In this document: positions 2,987 through 28,239 of the stretch, in pieces
Layout of the letters: every line of letters begins with the position of its first letter
How positions within the stretch are numbered: position 1 is the first letter of the stretch
Assembly (NCBI GenBank): GCA_029224905.1
Contig: JAQXVL010000186.1
Span: 1-38,410 of the forward strand
Reading direction: 5' to 3'
Origin: Bacteroidales bacterium
GTDB lineage: Bacteria; Bacteroidota; Bacteroidia; Bacteroidales; Muribaculaceae
DNA: 38,410 nucleotides
Made by a program: the position numbers and the translations under genes
Notes under the pieces: generated by a model
What the model saw: the letters and a program-made list of their open reading frames with translations, nothing else
Database searches by the model: none
Told to the model about the DNA's origin: nothing

Positions 2987-3916
2987 CTATAATTTGTTAG
3001 CAATTTGTTGAGCTTCGTCAGCCGAGAGGCAACATTCGCTGAGGATTTGAGCGATGTCGTCGGCGGTGATTTTGTCGAAGTCTTTTTCGAGCGGGGTGAT
3101 GAAAACGCCACCCATATCGACCGAAGCCGGGCTGATTAGGATGTTTTCGTCGCCTTCTTTGAAGTAGCAGTCGGGGCGATGCTTTTTGCGCGGGAACACG
3201 AGCACGTGCCAGCCGTTGCCGACGAATCGGCAAAGGACGTTGAGCATCGGTTCGGCTTCGCCTTCGGGGATGTCGAGGCAGTCGTAGAGGCGTTTGAACA
3301 GCGCAGCGCCGTCGACAACGGTGTCGGCTTCAATCAGGAAGCAGCTGTGCGACAGTCCGCCGACGAGCGACATCTTGGCAGAGCCTTCGGTTGCTACCTG
3401 AGTTTTTTCGGCAGTGACAACGTCGTCTTCGACGGGCATAAAGCCGCTGTTTCCGGCTTGGAAGTGCATGTGGTCGGGAGCTGACGCGCCGCATTTCGGA
3501 CCATTATAGAATAATGTATAGCCTTCGAGAGCGCGAGCGAGTTGCATCATGTCGGCGATACGGCCGTCGATGCGTTGGTCGACGTGGTTGTTGTCGGGAA
3601 TTGTCAGGTGGCGCGGGAAGATGGGGAACGGGTTGATGAGAACGGTGTAGTCGCCCCATTCCAATCCGCGTTGAACGGCAGGACGGTTCGCGGCACATAG
3701 GAAGCATTTGCGCTCTTTGAGCGACTTTGCGTCGACTTTTGCTGCCGACGAAGTGATTCTTCCGGGGTTGAATTGCACTTTGAAGTTAGTCGAACCAATC
3801 ATAAAGGTCTTAACCTTTACGTTGGCAAGTGCAGCAAAGTTATTACGTGCAGTATCCCATTCCTCAAGTTGTTGGTTGAGGAATGTGGATACTGTATTTT
3901 TATTGAGTTCTTGCAT
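2987..3916 (-). CDS. DUF4922 protein, HIT/GalT-like nucleotidyltransferase or phosphorylase
   Basis: The protein has 309 aa from the ATG at 3916. The track's longer start lies inside the upstream glycosyltransferase gene, and choosing 3916 leaves a 2-bp gap. Near residue 149 is DHMHFQAG, an HxHxQ motif like the active site of GalT, Ap4A phosphorylase and GDP-hexose phosphorylases. Earlier are a CFLC pair (about 71-74, possibly zinc-binding), followed by an NRP and then NPFPIFPRHLTIP, which also fit that fold. I therefore infer a nucleotide-sugar phosphorylase or nucleotidyltransferase with a covalent His-NMP step. The substrate is unknown. Its place between a GT2-like gene and SpoIID/AmpG suggests handling of an activated amino sugar. 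There is no signal peptide, so it should be cytoplasmic. Confidence 0.75.
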   Translation of the reverse strand: MQELNKNTVSTFLNQQLEEWDTARNNFAALANVKVKTFMIGSTNFKVQFNPGRITSSAAKVDAKSLKERKCFLCAANRPAVQRGLEWGDYTVLINPFPIFPRHLTIPDNNHVDQRIDGRIADMMQLARALEGYTLFYNGPKCGASAPDHMHFQAGNSGFMPVEDDVVTAEKTQVATEGSAKMSLVGGLSHSCFLIEADTVVDGAALFKRLYDCLDIPEGEAEPMLNVLCRFVGNGWHVLVFPRKKHRPDCYFKEGDENILISPASVDMGGVFITPLEKDFDKITADDIAQILSECCLSADEAQQIANKL

Positions 3917-5407: not shown

Positions 5408-8400
5408 CTATTTTTGGAAGAATTTTAAGATTTGACACATAAGTTGGTTGCGAGCGTCGCTGTCGGTAATCGTTTCGAACGGGAACCCGACGACGCAGGT
5501 TTTGTGGCTACCGAGGTCGGCAACGATGCCGGCGGATATGTTGTTTTCGTCGTAGCGAAGCAGGGTGCATGCGTTGTCGGTGTTAGCCGGTTGCAGTGCG
5601 TCGGGCGACTCTACGGCGTAGATTCGGTCGTTGTATTGTTGTGCAAAACTGCAGTTAAGTTTGCCGAAATCGTCGAAGTAGGTCGGCACGAGGTGTGCTT
5701 TTCCTTCGACGGCTGCTTGCCCAACGACCCACTTGTAGCCGAGCACGTCGGAGGCGAATTTTTTCTTTTCGTCGGTCGATTTCTTGTTGTCCCAAACGTC
5801 GGAAGCCACGTAAGCGCCGCTGACGAAGATGTTTCCGCCGGCGTTGCAGAACGCTGTGACGGCTCGTTGCAGTTCGCTCGAGTAGAGGGCAAAGCGGTCA
5901 GGCATTTCGCCGCGACCGATGACGGTTGTTTTTTGCTTGCCGAGAATCAGGTCGGCTGTCGGGTATTTCGTGAGGTCGAAACTTCCGCTTTCGACAGATT
6001 CGAGGCTCGCTGAAACGAAAGAATAGCCTGCGGCAAGAATCGATTCGCCGTGGGTGTAGGCGAAGTCGAAGGTGTTGCCGGCAATCACTTCGGTCTCTTT
6101 GTCGGCGCGCGATGAGCCGAATCCGCAAGAGTCGTCGCTTACCCACGGAAGTTCGCGGCGGAACTCAAACATTGCGCCGATGTAGTTGATGTCGTTGATG
6201 TAGGGCACACCGTTGTCGTATTCGGGACGGAATCCGGCGATTTCGCCCGAGTCGAACGAGTCGGGGGCTGACACGCGGGTAAATCCGTTGACGATGGCAA
6301 CAGTGCCTTTCGAATCGGGTGCAACAGCCAGGGCGAGCGTTTCCGACGGGAAACTTTTGCCGCCGTCATTGCAGGCTACGATTTGATAGCTGTGGATTAG
6401 GTTGTCGTCGACGGTTACGGCGAATTCGGTGTCGTCGGTTGTCGCAATTTGGCGGAAACCGCTATTGCCGATGCGTTCAAGCACGATGTAACTGCGAGCT
6501 TCGGCGCGTGCGCATTGTTTGTCGACGGTGGGTTTCCACGAGAGTGTGAAGCTGCGGTCGGCGGTTTGCGCGATGGCGAAACTGTTGACGGGGAGCGGCT
6601 GGATTTGGTAGTCGTGGCGACCTTCAACGTCGGCGAAAAACTCGGCGATGCCTTTATAGATGGCGCGCGAAACGGTGAAGCGGAATGCCGGGTCGAGTCC
6701 GTAGCGCATGTCGGCGAGGTTTTGGTGCGACAGCAGTTCGAGAAGCATTGCGGGCACTTCGGGAACGCGTGCTTCGTAGTATGATTCGTCCCACATACCG
6801 CGGCGAGTCCACTTGCTGTCGAATTGCGAGCGAACGTCGTTGGTGATGTTTGTCAGGACGTAGTCGGTGAGTTTGTGCGAGTTGAATCGGTCGGTGCCGT
6901 TAGCGTAAGTTTCGCCGCGTGTGCAGTAGATACCGAGCGTGCCGATGATAGTGTCGTCCATCGTCGTTCCGGCGTCGGAGTGGAATGCGAACGAGAGGTC
7001 GACGGGAATGTTTAGACCCGGGCGGTCGGGCAGCGTCTTTGAGCCGCCGGCGAGGTAGTTCACCCACAGACCGCGGCAACGGTAGTCGTCGGTGTAGTCG
7101 TTAGCGCCGTTCGACGGCGAATAGATTGTGTCGGGTACGCCCGCCCATTGGAGCCAGTAGCGAGCGGCTTCGGTAAATCGCGGGTAGCCGCTGACGGTGT
7201 TTTCGCTCTTGACGCGGAGTTTGACGGTTTCGGCGGGCTTGTCGGATTCGCTGGAGCGTACGTTGGCGAGTGCTTCGGTGTTAGCGCAGCGTGCGATGTT
7301 GCCCATACCGCCGCCGATTTTGACGGCATCGGCTGTGATTACGGCGTTTTTATGTGCCGAGTGATTTGTGAGTTCGACGATTGTCTGTTCGCCGCTGTCG
7401 AAGTGGAAGTGACCGAGGTAAATCCAAGTGGAGCCGCCCATTGTTTGGTTGACGCGAAAGGCGCGGTCACCTTCGGCGGAATGTACGGTGTAGGTAGCGT
7501 CGTTGGCGCTGTTCGGCAGAGTTGCATACGAAACGTAGACGGCATATTTCCCGGCTTGCGGAATTGTTGCCGACCAGGTTGCCGCTGCGGTTTTATCGGA
7601 TTTTGTTGCGTCGATTTTGCGGAATGTGCCGTGAGTGAACGGGTTGTCGAAGCCTTCATAACTCTGTCGGTCGTGCTTGAATCCCGTGCCGCCGTCGGTC
7701 CAACTTTTGTCGCCGTCGGTTTCGGCATATTTGCCGGTAGCGAGCGAGCCGTCGTTGTCGACGATGATTTCGACGGTGTTGGTGTCGCGTTCGCGAGGGC
7801 TCATAACGTAGGCGCCGGCATTTTCGAGCATGGGCATCAAGAACGGCATGACGTAGCTTTGTGTGTAGAGGTCTTCAACGGTTTGGAAGATGCGCGCGCG
7901 TTGCCATTGCCAGCGGTTTGCTTTTTGCTCGAAGAACCAGCCGTGGCTTTGCCACATTGCGATGATTTTGCCGTCGAGGCCTTTCGCGGGATGCCGCGTG
8001 TCGTCGAGCGGGAAGATAAACCAATCGTCTTTGTGGTTGTTGGCTGTATAGTCGAGGCGTGTGCTGCGGAGAAAGTCGGTTGCCGGGCGCTTGCTGATGA
8101 GCAGGTCGAGGCGATAGCCTTTATACTGAGCGCCGAGTGCGGCTTTCGCTTTTGTTTCGAATTCGGTAAGGAATGCTTTGTCGAAGGGAATGTAGCCGAA
8201 GTTGTCGTTCATACCGATTACGACGCGTCGCGCTTTGTCGTCGACGGTTGCGCTGTCGACGGCAATTTTGCCAATCTGCATATTTGCAGGAATCATGGCA
8301 TTAGCAGTTTTGGCTATTCGGTCTCTAACGTTCTTTGCTAATGGTTGTTCTATTGCCTTAGCTATCGATGCCGTAAGCATGAGCATAAGGATAATTGCAA

Positions 8401-27404: not shown

Positions 27405-27588
27405 CTCCTAATAATTACGAAATGAAAGCAAATCTTCAACTATTTATCGAATTGTTAACGAATTTTAGATATTTGATTTGTTGTATATTAATAAAAGTGA
27501 ATGCGTCTATTGTAAATGAGATAATATTTTTATTTTGTATACAAAATCAGACGCTTTAGTGTCCTTATTCTGCAAAATAGTAATAATA

Positions 27589-27628
27589 GGATGTTCGACT
27601 CGAAAGCAAATGGATGTTCGGCTCGAAA
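27589..27628 (+). repeat. Pair of 17-bp direct repeats, 23-bp period
   Basis: GGATGTTCGACTCGAAA (27589-27605) recurs as GGATGTTCGGCTCGAAA (27612-27628), differing at one base. The 23-bp period is about two helical turns, as expected for tandem protein-binding sites, though a chance duplication is also possible. Confidence 0.7.
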
Positions 27629-27635
27629 AGTTGAG

Positions 27636-27676
27636 TTTTTTCCAAACCGGTCAAATTTTCGAGGTTTTGGAAAAAA
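27636..27676. repeat. A/T-rich inverted repeat
   Basis: TTTTTTCCAAACC (27636-27648) faces GGTTTTGGAAAAAA (27663-27676), pairing throughout except for one extra base. The T-run is on the 5' side of the hairpin on both strands, which does not fit a standard terminator. Confidence 0.6.
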
Positions 27677-27736
27677 TAGTATTGCTTCGCAACGCGCACC
27701 GGACTTCGTCCGACGTACGCTATAAGCTTACTCGCG

Positions 27737-27769
27737 AATATAACAAATCTCGAAAAGATTTGTTATATT
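27737..27769. repeat. Perfect 13-bp inverted repeat overlapping the thioredoxin promoter
   Basis: AATATAACAAATC (27737-27749) and GATTTGTTATATT (27757-27769) are exact reverse complements around a 7-nt spacer. The right arm covers most of the -7 element of the downstream gene, so the site could be an operator or a hairpin that affects promoter melting. Confidence 0.85.
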
Positions 27770-27771
27770 TG
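27764..27771 (+). promoter_or_regulatory. Promoter -7 element for the thioredoxin-like lipoprotein gene
   Basis: TATATTTG matches TAnnTTTG and lies 18 bp upstream of the ATG at 27790. It is embedded in the right arm of a perfect inverted repeat. Confidence 0.6.
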
Positions 27772-27789
27772 CAAAAAAATGAATCTGAC

Positions 27790-28239
27790 ATGAAGAAATT
27801 AGTATTGTTGTTTGCGGTAATTTTTGCCTTCAGCGCGTGTGCGCAGACGAAGACCGAAACCGCTACCGAGGAGACTGCAACGGTTGTCGAACCGACGGAG
27901 ATGAACCTTGAAATGTTCACCGAAAAGATATGCGACGTCAACACCAAGACGTGGAAATTCAAAGGCGAACGCCCGGCGGTGATTGACTTTTATGCCACTT
28001 GGTGCGGCCCCTGCCGAGCGCTGTCGCCTCTGGTCGACAAGGCTGCCAACGAATATGCCGGCAAGGTGGATTTCTACAAGGTGGACATCGACAAAGTGCC
28101 CGAATTGGCGCAACTTTTCGGCATTCAGTCTATTCCGGTGCTGCTGTTCATTCCGGTCGACGGCGAGCCGCAAGGTTCGATGGGGCTTATCTCCGACGAC
28201 GAATTGCATCAGCGCATCGACTCGCTGTTGGCAAAATAA
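27790..28239 (+). CDS. Thioredoxin-like lipoprotein
   Basis: The protein has 149 aa from the ATG at 27790. The track's start 85 codons upstream covers promoter and repeat DNA. A signal peptide with a lipobox-like end (IFAFSAC) puts a lipidated cysteine at residue 17. The thioredoxin domain has ATWCGPC (active cysteines about 72 and 75), a YKVDIDKVPELAQLFGIQSIPVL stretch and the cis-proline in SIPV. It likely acts as a periplasmic thiol-disulfide enzyme; reduction or oxidation cannot be told from the sequence. It ends 7 bp from the stop of the converging gtrA-like gene. Confidence 0.88.
   Translation: MKKLVLLFAVIFAFSACAQTKTETATEETATVVEPTEMNLEMFTEKICDVNTKTWKFKGERPAVIDFYATWCGPCRALSPLVDKAANEYAGKVDFYKVDIDKVPELAQLFGIQSIPVLLFIPVDGEPQGSMGLISDDELHQRIDSLLAK

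Follow-up and report, generated by a model that had tools for sequence, protein, structure and literature searches.

Upstream of the gene for a thioredoxin-domain lipoprotein, in a 38,410-nucleotide stretch of a Muribaculaceae genome (the window, hereafter always meaning the whole stretch), lies an inverted repeat whose right arm carries a promoter -7 box. The preliminary description of this DNA took the repeat to be an operator or else part of a dispersed, promoter-bearing palindromic repeat, and the question is which of the two it is. The palindrome is the 3' hairpin of a dispersed repeat element of ~95-110 bp and does not stand alone. It is probably the end (hairpin II) of one copy of a non-autonomous mobile repeat of the single-stranded DNA (ssDNA) hairpin type, which would supply the -7 box. 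What we observe is the element with its fold, the numbers of copies and their tandem arrays, the -7-box position and the complementary variable arms; the mobility and the mechanism discussed below are inferred.

The palindrome at the thioredoxin promoter

The features of the locus, all on the forward strand, are given here in order.

27660..27669, + strand: left junction, decayed (CGAGGTTTTG); the matches of covariance models R1 and R2 start there
27670..27737, + strand: three-way-junction core (P1 stem, P2, P3), from the covariation structure; outer left strand of P1 decayed
27683..27691, + strand: P2 hairpin TGC-TTC-GCA, covarying helix 2
27694..27720, + strand: P3 hairpin GCGCA-C-CGGAC-TTC-GTCCG-ACG-TACGC, helices 3 and 4
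27734..27737, + strand: GCGA segment, able to pair with TTGC either at the left end, forming the outer P1, or at the right end, forming hairpin II
27734..27772, + strand: hairpin II (the palindrome), 17-nt arms, loop CGAAA at 27751-27755
27764..27771, + strand: right-end TATATTTG, a sigma-ABfr-type -7 box by its sequence, inside the 17-nt right arm
27790..28239, + strand: thioredoxin-domain lipoprotein gene, 149 aa; Pfam PF00085, E 4e-23; lipobox-like LVLLFAVIFAFSACAQ

The palindrome had been described as a perfect 13-bp inverted repeat at 27737-27771. The repeat is real; its perfect arms are 14 bp long, at 27737-27750 (AATATAACAAATCT) and 27756-27769 (AGATTTGTTATATT) around the CGAAA loop, and the right end had been placed 2 nt too far. 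A G·T wobble (27736/27770) lengthens the arms to 17 nt (27734-27750 and 27756-27772, 94% complementary). As RNA, the single strand folds at -20.4 kcal/mol (z -8.6, 0/200 shuffles), and folding of the palindrome strand as DNA gave -13.6 (z -7.3 against shuffles). The right arm was correctly said to contain TATATTTG, which fits TAnnTTTG, the -7 consensus of the Bacteroides sigma-ABfr (PMC7366714), lies 18 nt upstream of the lipoprotein start codon and, judged by its letters, is the best remaining candidate -7 box upstream of that gene. In this genome, 1.18 Mb were scanned and contain 1099 TAnnTTTG boxes; in perfect palindrome arms of at least 14 bp lie only the window box, that of a copy at glnS and one symmetric palindrome, which counts on both strands. 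It is because of this rarity and of the shuffle folding scores that the palindrome is regarded as beyond chance. A pattern scan of both strands reported no intrinsic terminator (GC-rich hairpin, then T run) at the palindrome.

At L128 ~6800-6850, L174 ~1370-1410 and L124 ~3205-3240 of the same genome, both arms of a symmetric palindrome contain a TAnnTTTG box, giving divergent -7 boxes that face outward from one hairpin.

An open frame of 234 aa (27535-28239) traverses non-coding DNA here, and the true lipoprotein frame begins at 27790; the earlier remark that such an in-frame stretch is easily mistaken for coding sequence was right. Two other repeats were seen to the left. At 27589-27628, upstream of the element, GGATGTTCG(A/G)CTCGAAA occurs twice, as direct copies 23 bp apart. 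Immediately left of the element, at 27622-27676, two inverted repeats are interlaced (TTTTTTCCAAA/TTTGGAAAAAA and CTCGAAAAGTTGA/TCAAATTTTCGAG), which may represent another small repeat or else what is left of a preceding unit.

Architecture and fold of the element

Besides the copy at the thioredoxin gene, BLAST in the source genome identified two others, upstream of glnS (C227) and of ilvE (C124), with 87-88% identity over ~95 bp; only these three copies were found there. The constant part is a GC-rich core, CGCGCACCGGACTTCGTCCGACGTNCGCTATAAGC..ACNCGCGAATATA, and the palindrome is the variable part. Patterns of the palindrome alone gave one copy or a few weak matches in this genome, and the repeat emerged only through the core.

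Each unit consists of (T)TTG, a three-way junction of ~70 nt and hairpin II, which ends in (T/A)TTG. The left TTTG of the window copy lies at 27666-27669 but lacks the TAnn that would make it a -7 box; the left junctions elsewhere in the genome read TTATATTTG-CGG at ilvE and GTAATTTTG-CG at glnS (the hyphen marks the junction, as in the sites given below). P1 is a stem of ~16 bp, mostly of variable sequence, with a conserved U·G pair and one nucleotide bulged before CGCGA; the left-end pairing of GCGA falls in alignment columns 8-11/77-80. The P3 core is nearly identical in the glnS and ilvE copies, and the family-level types are TGCC-TTC-GGCA for P2 and GCGCA-C-CGGCC-TTT-GGCCG-ACA-TGCGC for P3.

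The fold was assessed on 33 copies and 30 pairs. It was found that 96.0% of cells were paired, a figure that leans towards the fold because the copies had been aligned by fitting them to R1, a model of closely related structure that did not include P2 and the outer part of P3. Changes on both sides were seen in 21/30 pairs, with 164 double-change cells against a shuffle mean of 48, and apart from the pair types (7/500) none of 500 shuffles matched the observed values. Controls with a slid structure were only 32-41% paired. For the copy in the window, R1 gives a score of 75 bits and R2 one of 50 bits.

Distribution among genomes

A BLAST search of 99 relatives with the window copy gave only two weak partial matches outside the source genome, one later shown to be a diverged copy (G023) and the other an ordinary promoter-like match (G032); a profile, followed by a covariance model, had to be used. 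The profile, made from the three copies of the source genome, matched two diverged copies in other genera, and the covariance model was built from these five. In the host family (Muribaculaceae, from the GTDB lineage of the source), 397 genomes of 30 genera were sampled; the model detected the element in 159 genomes (40%) and 20 genera, and found it absent from all three congeners of the source genome. With laxer filters, the numbers of copies per genome were 63, 58, 21, 17, 17, 15, 13, 12, 10 and 8, the highest being those of G362 (63) and G031 (58). Tandem arrays of 81-101-bp units are frequent and were read directly at three loci (L273, L280, L289); such tandem copies may break assemblies. 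In an order-wide survey of 393 genomes, the element was found outside the host family only in a genome of another family (G607, four copies) and in G779 (one copy). The proposal of a dispersed promoter-bearing palindromic repeat is thus supported and extended, to a family-wide element with a larger, three-way-junction fold; with three copies in its own genome and homologues across the host family, the palindrome is not a single unconserved copy.

No relevant match to the 4227 models of Rfam was obtained in the window or at 14 other loci, and an exact core pattern run over GTDB contigs returned nothing but a chance Streptomyces match. As a structured family, the element looks undescribed in Rfam 15 and in the open literature searched, and small non-autonomous hairpin repeats near promoters are an already known kind. 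The seeming promoter palindrome thus belongs to one copy of a structured repeat missing from Rfam and present in two fifths of the sampled host-family genomes.

Three viral contigs contain the element. Two contigs from IMG/VR (L260, L262) have the same copy near an amidase-like lysis gene; plasmid and phage collections gave no match, and neither did two further viral patterns. Phages may transfer the element between hosts. At two loci of G031 (L275, L282), copies come after CTCCTCATTCCTCATTCCCCATTCC-type runs, close to contig ends, CTCCTCATTCCTCATTCCCCATTCC being another dispersed repeat.

Position within -7 boxes and neighbouring genes

In 50/51 copies, the core is directly preceded by TTG. 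A TA occupies the -7-box position, giving a TAnnTTTG left flank, in 34/51 copies, compared with 11.2% of the TTG sites in non-coding DNA (p 1e-20); not all left flanks are promoters. The right-end TTG is followed by a pyrimidine in 33/36 copies (background 63%) and by YA in 23/36 (background 18%), and when the flanks are joined across the element, TAnnTTTGY results in 27/36. From the left flanks and the joined flanks (TAnnTTTG-Y), it was concluded that the element sits inside sigma-ABfr -7 boxes. The congeners, which are ~10% diverged in protein, are without the element at glnS and ilvE, and the promoter shape there resembles the joined flanks of the source genome: TAATTTTG-CACTTTAT against TAATTTTGTGCTTTGAT at glnS, and TTATATTTG-CACTAATA against TAAATTTGCAATAACA at ilvE. 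The glnS locus is not a clean empty site because its left flank also resembles the right-end remnant of a previous unit, and for the thioredoxin locus no syntenic empty site was found in the congeners.

Direct repeats that flank the copies at four loci (L281, L287, L289, L294) had suggested a long target-site duplication. This model was abandoned, since a number of such left flanks look like right-end remnants of a preceding unit (for instance CTCGAGAATTTT at L271) and since the repeats are little stronger than those between loci of the same genome, 10.1 versus 9.6 of 14.

The 121 flanking ORFs fall into 172 Pfam families, each with at most three members, and the genes with a neighbouring copy include the core genes glnS, ilvE, mdh and ychF besides the thioredoxin lipoprotein. 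The commonest flanking family is DUF1016_N, with three members, two of them with YhcG_C (loci of alignment A6); this adjacency has perhaps come about through mobile islands. In four genomes (L237, L241, L254, L255), the element is directly upstream of one common gene (MTKDELVAKLHDIEWEDFEVKAAKSELP...), with TAATTTTG or TAAATTTG as left flank. The element is a possible 5' leader there, and this subset might represent a domesticated copy.

A rival explanation is a cis-acting structured leader RNA, in which the left -7 box would drive transcription of the junction and hairpin II, and this RNA would control how the downstream mRNA is translated or degraded, the spread being due to duplication and selection and any mobility being incidental. 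The element does have a -7 box on one side and a start codon on the other, with the start of a same-strand ORF no more than 200 nt downstream in 29/47 cases, compared with a divergent ORF start upstream in 19/47, and the strong covariation of the fold is equally compatible with a selected RNA. G·T also exceeds A·C in the paired columns (46 vs 11), as would be expected if one strand folds; however, one invariant wobble pair gives 30 of these, and without it the ratio is only 16:11. Moreover, the downstream genes are unrelated, orthologues in the congeners do without the element, the tandem arrays and genomes of up to 63 copies do not suit a leader, and the window copy has lost the promoter that would transcribe it. 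A leader RNA is, on this evidence, a rather unlikely explanation.

The complementary arms of hairpin II

Past P1, the copies read GCGA(A/T)...(T/A)TTG, and a hairpin joins both ends in 36/51; a clear hairpin II is absent from ~15/51. Its stems measure 4 to ~20 bp and differ in sequence between copies, as in the arms GCGAATGC/GCATTTGC, GCGATTATGCGC/GCGCATAATTG, GCGAATATC/GATATTTGC and GCGAATACAATAAATATTGGT/ACCAATATTTATTATATTTGC. The arms of one copy are more complementary to each other than to arms from other loci (z 6.7, 0/20000 permutations). The thioredoxin and glnS arms differ at three positions, all three compensated, and the ilvE palindrome is imperfect. Since the arms vary between copies yet stay self-complementary, there is no constant protein-binding word beyond GCGA...TTG; the locus-specific complementarity indicates that pairing itself is maintained, which is a strong argument against a fixed operator word. 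The maintenance could proceed through selection of the hairpin or through correction by template switching, a documented process that creates and mends hairpins (PMC8794818), and the element offers a natural data set on how the complementarity of hairpin arms is kept.

Template switching in a quasi-palindrome could also have perfected the window arms as a mere by-product of replication, with no role in the element. Such an origin would agree with the known capacity of the process (PMC8794818) and with the finding that two of the three copies in the genome are perfect, with different sequences, and one is imperfect; but complementary hairpins recur at the right end in 36/51 copies, in several genera and in another family (G607), and nearly always share the GCGA/TTG foot, so that a by-product appears improbable. 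Least credible of all is the operator, a dimeric regulator on the 14-bp palindrome that would block the thioredoxin -7 box, since apart from the perfect palindrome over that box the reading is unsupported: the arms are locus-specific while staying complementary within each copy, those of glnS differ by three compensatory changes, and the ilvE copy is a poor palindrome.

A possible mode of insertion

Under the favoured explanation, a non-autonomous mobile repeat, the element occupies the gap between TTTG and the next pyrimidine of a TAnnTTTG (sigma-ABfr) box. As it lies 3' of the TTTG, the host promoter remains on its left, and a second -7 box would be offered on the right whenever hairpin II ends in TAnnTTTG, as it does in the thioredoxin copy. 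There, the left box has decayed to GAGGTTTTG, and the TATATTTG of hairpin II is likely the working -7 box. Insertion would take place 3' of TTG as single-stranded DNA, and a single GCGA segment would pair with the TTGC of each end, through the outer P1 on the left and hairpin II on the right. A HUH enzyme of the TnpA-REP/RAYT kind could act in trans; a motif search revealed no ORF with HUH/Y1 motifs in 1.18 Mb (45%) of the source genome or at the element loci. If the melted nontemplate strand of a promoter were the target, insertion there 3' of TTG would explain the address TAnnTTTG-Y, and insertion at an existing copy, or slippage of one, may give rise to the tandem arrays.

It is only tentatively proposed that, across the family, an ssDNA-hairpin element inserts specifically into the melted sigma-ABfr -7 region (TAnnTTTG-Y), with GCGA choosing both ends, and hands promoters to the genes it invades. 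If insertion into -7 boxes holds true, the element would be mobile and directed at the regions where transcription starts, and it would alter 5' leaders and donate promoters to core genes.

Comparison with known systems

The REPtrons (TnpA-REP/RAYT) of Bacteroidetes belong to subclass 2.6, equivalent to RAYT group 5 (PMC6006769, PMC8266576). On either side of their TnpA-REP stand atypical secondary structures, which are found repeatedly in the genome, and the subclass has been reported to be without the GT[AG]G foot (PMC6006769). The element resembles REP sequences and REPtrons in being a dispersed intergenic hairpin repeat of many copies (up to 63 per genome, three in the source genome), in its tandem, BIME-like clusters and species-specific amplification, and in having a bulged stem and a short segment able to pair with the ends. 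Unlike REP sequences, which are single hairpins of 20-50 nt, it is ~100 nt long with a three-way junction, and it has no GT[AG]G foot, the left foot being TTTG-CGG or TTTG-CAG. It also departs from REPtrons in lying precisely in -7 boxes, and no tnpA was found in 1.18 Mb of the source genome or at the loci.

In IS200/IS605, cleavage sites are selected by complementarity to a guide tetranucleotide, and the REP foot serves TnpA-REP similarly (PMC8266576). GCGA, complementary to TTGC at both ends, is comparable to such guides, though complementarity alone does not demonstrate cleavage. Like the non-autonomous elements of this group (e.g. PATEs), the repeat needs no long target duplication and has hairpins near both ends, and as in IS200/IS605 elements the left target is fixed, TTG in 50/51 copies, and the right end is set by (T/A)TTG (36 copies). 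Its fold and its promoter-box target are different, and no TnpA/TnpB parent was found.

Compared with a DDE-type MITE, the outer stem TTTGCG/CGCGAA would act as the TIR, and the direct repeats that flank some loci (10.1 versus 9.6 of 14 between loci of one genome) look like array remnants. The invertible promoters of Bacteroidales likewise have inverted repeats at a TAnnTTTG promoter; here, in contrast, only a 5-nt loop separates the palindrome arms, and there is no invertible segment. Promoter-carrying short repeats of mobile appearance are also represented by the Correia elements of Neisseria (PMC2649163) and by BrickBuilt of Porphyromonas gingivalis, which occurs in the same order as the hosts of the element and contains tandem repeats (PMC4596501). 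In contrast to both of these MITEs, the element has a covarying three-way junction, and its flanks are those of a -7 box and not a short target duplication of the transposase type. Its arrays are composed of whole units in tandem, those of BrickBuilt of 23-mers.
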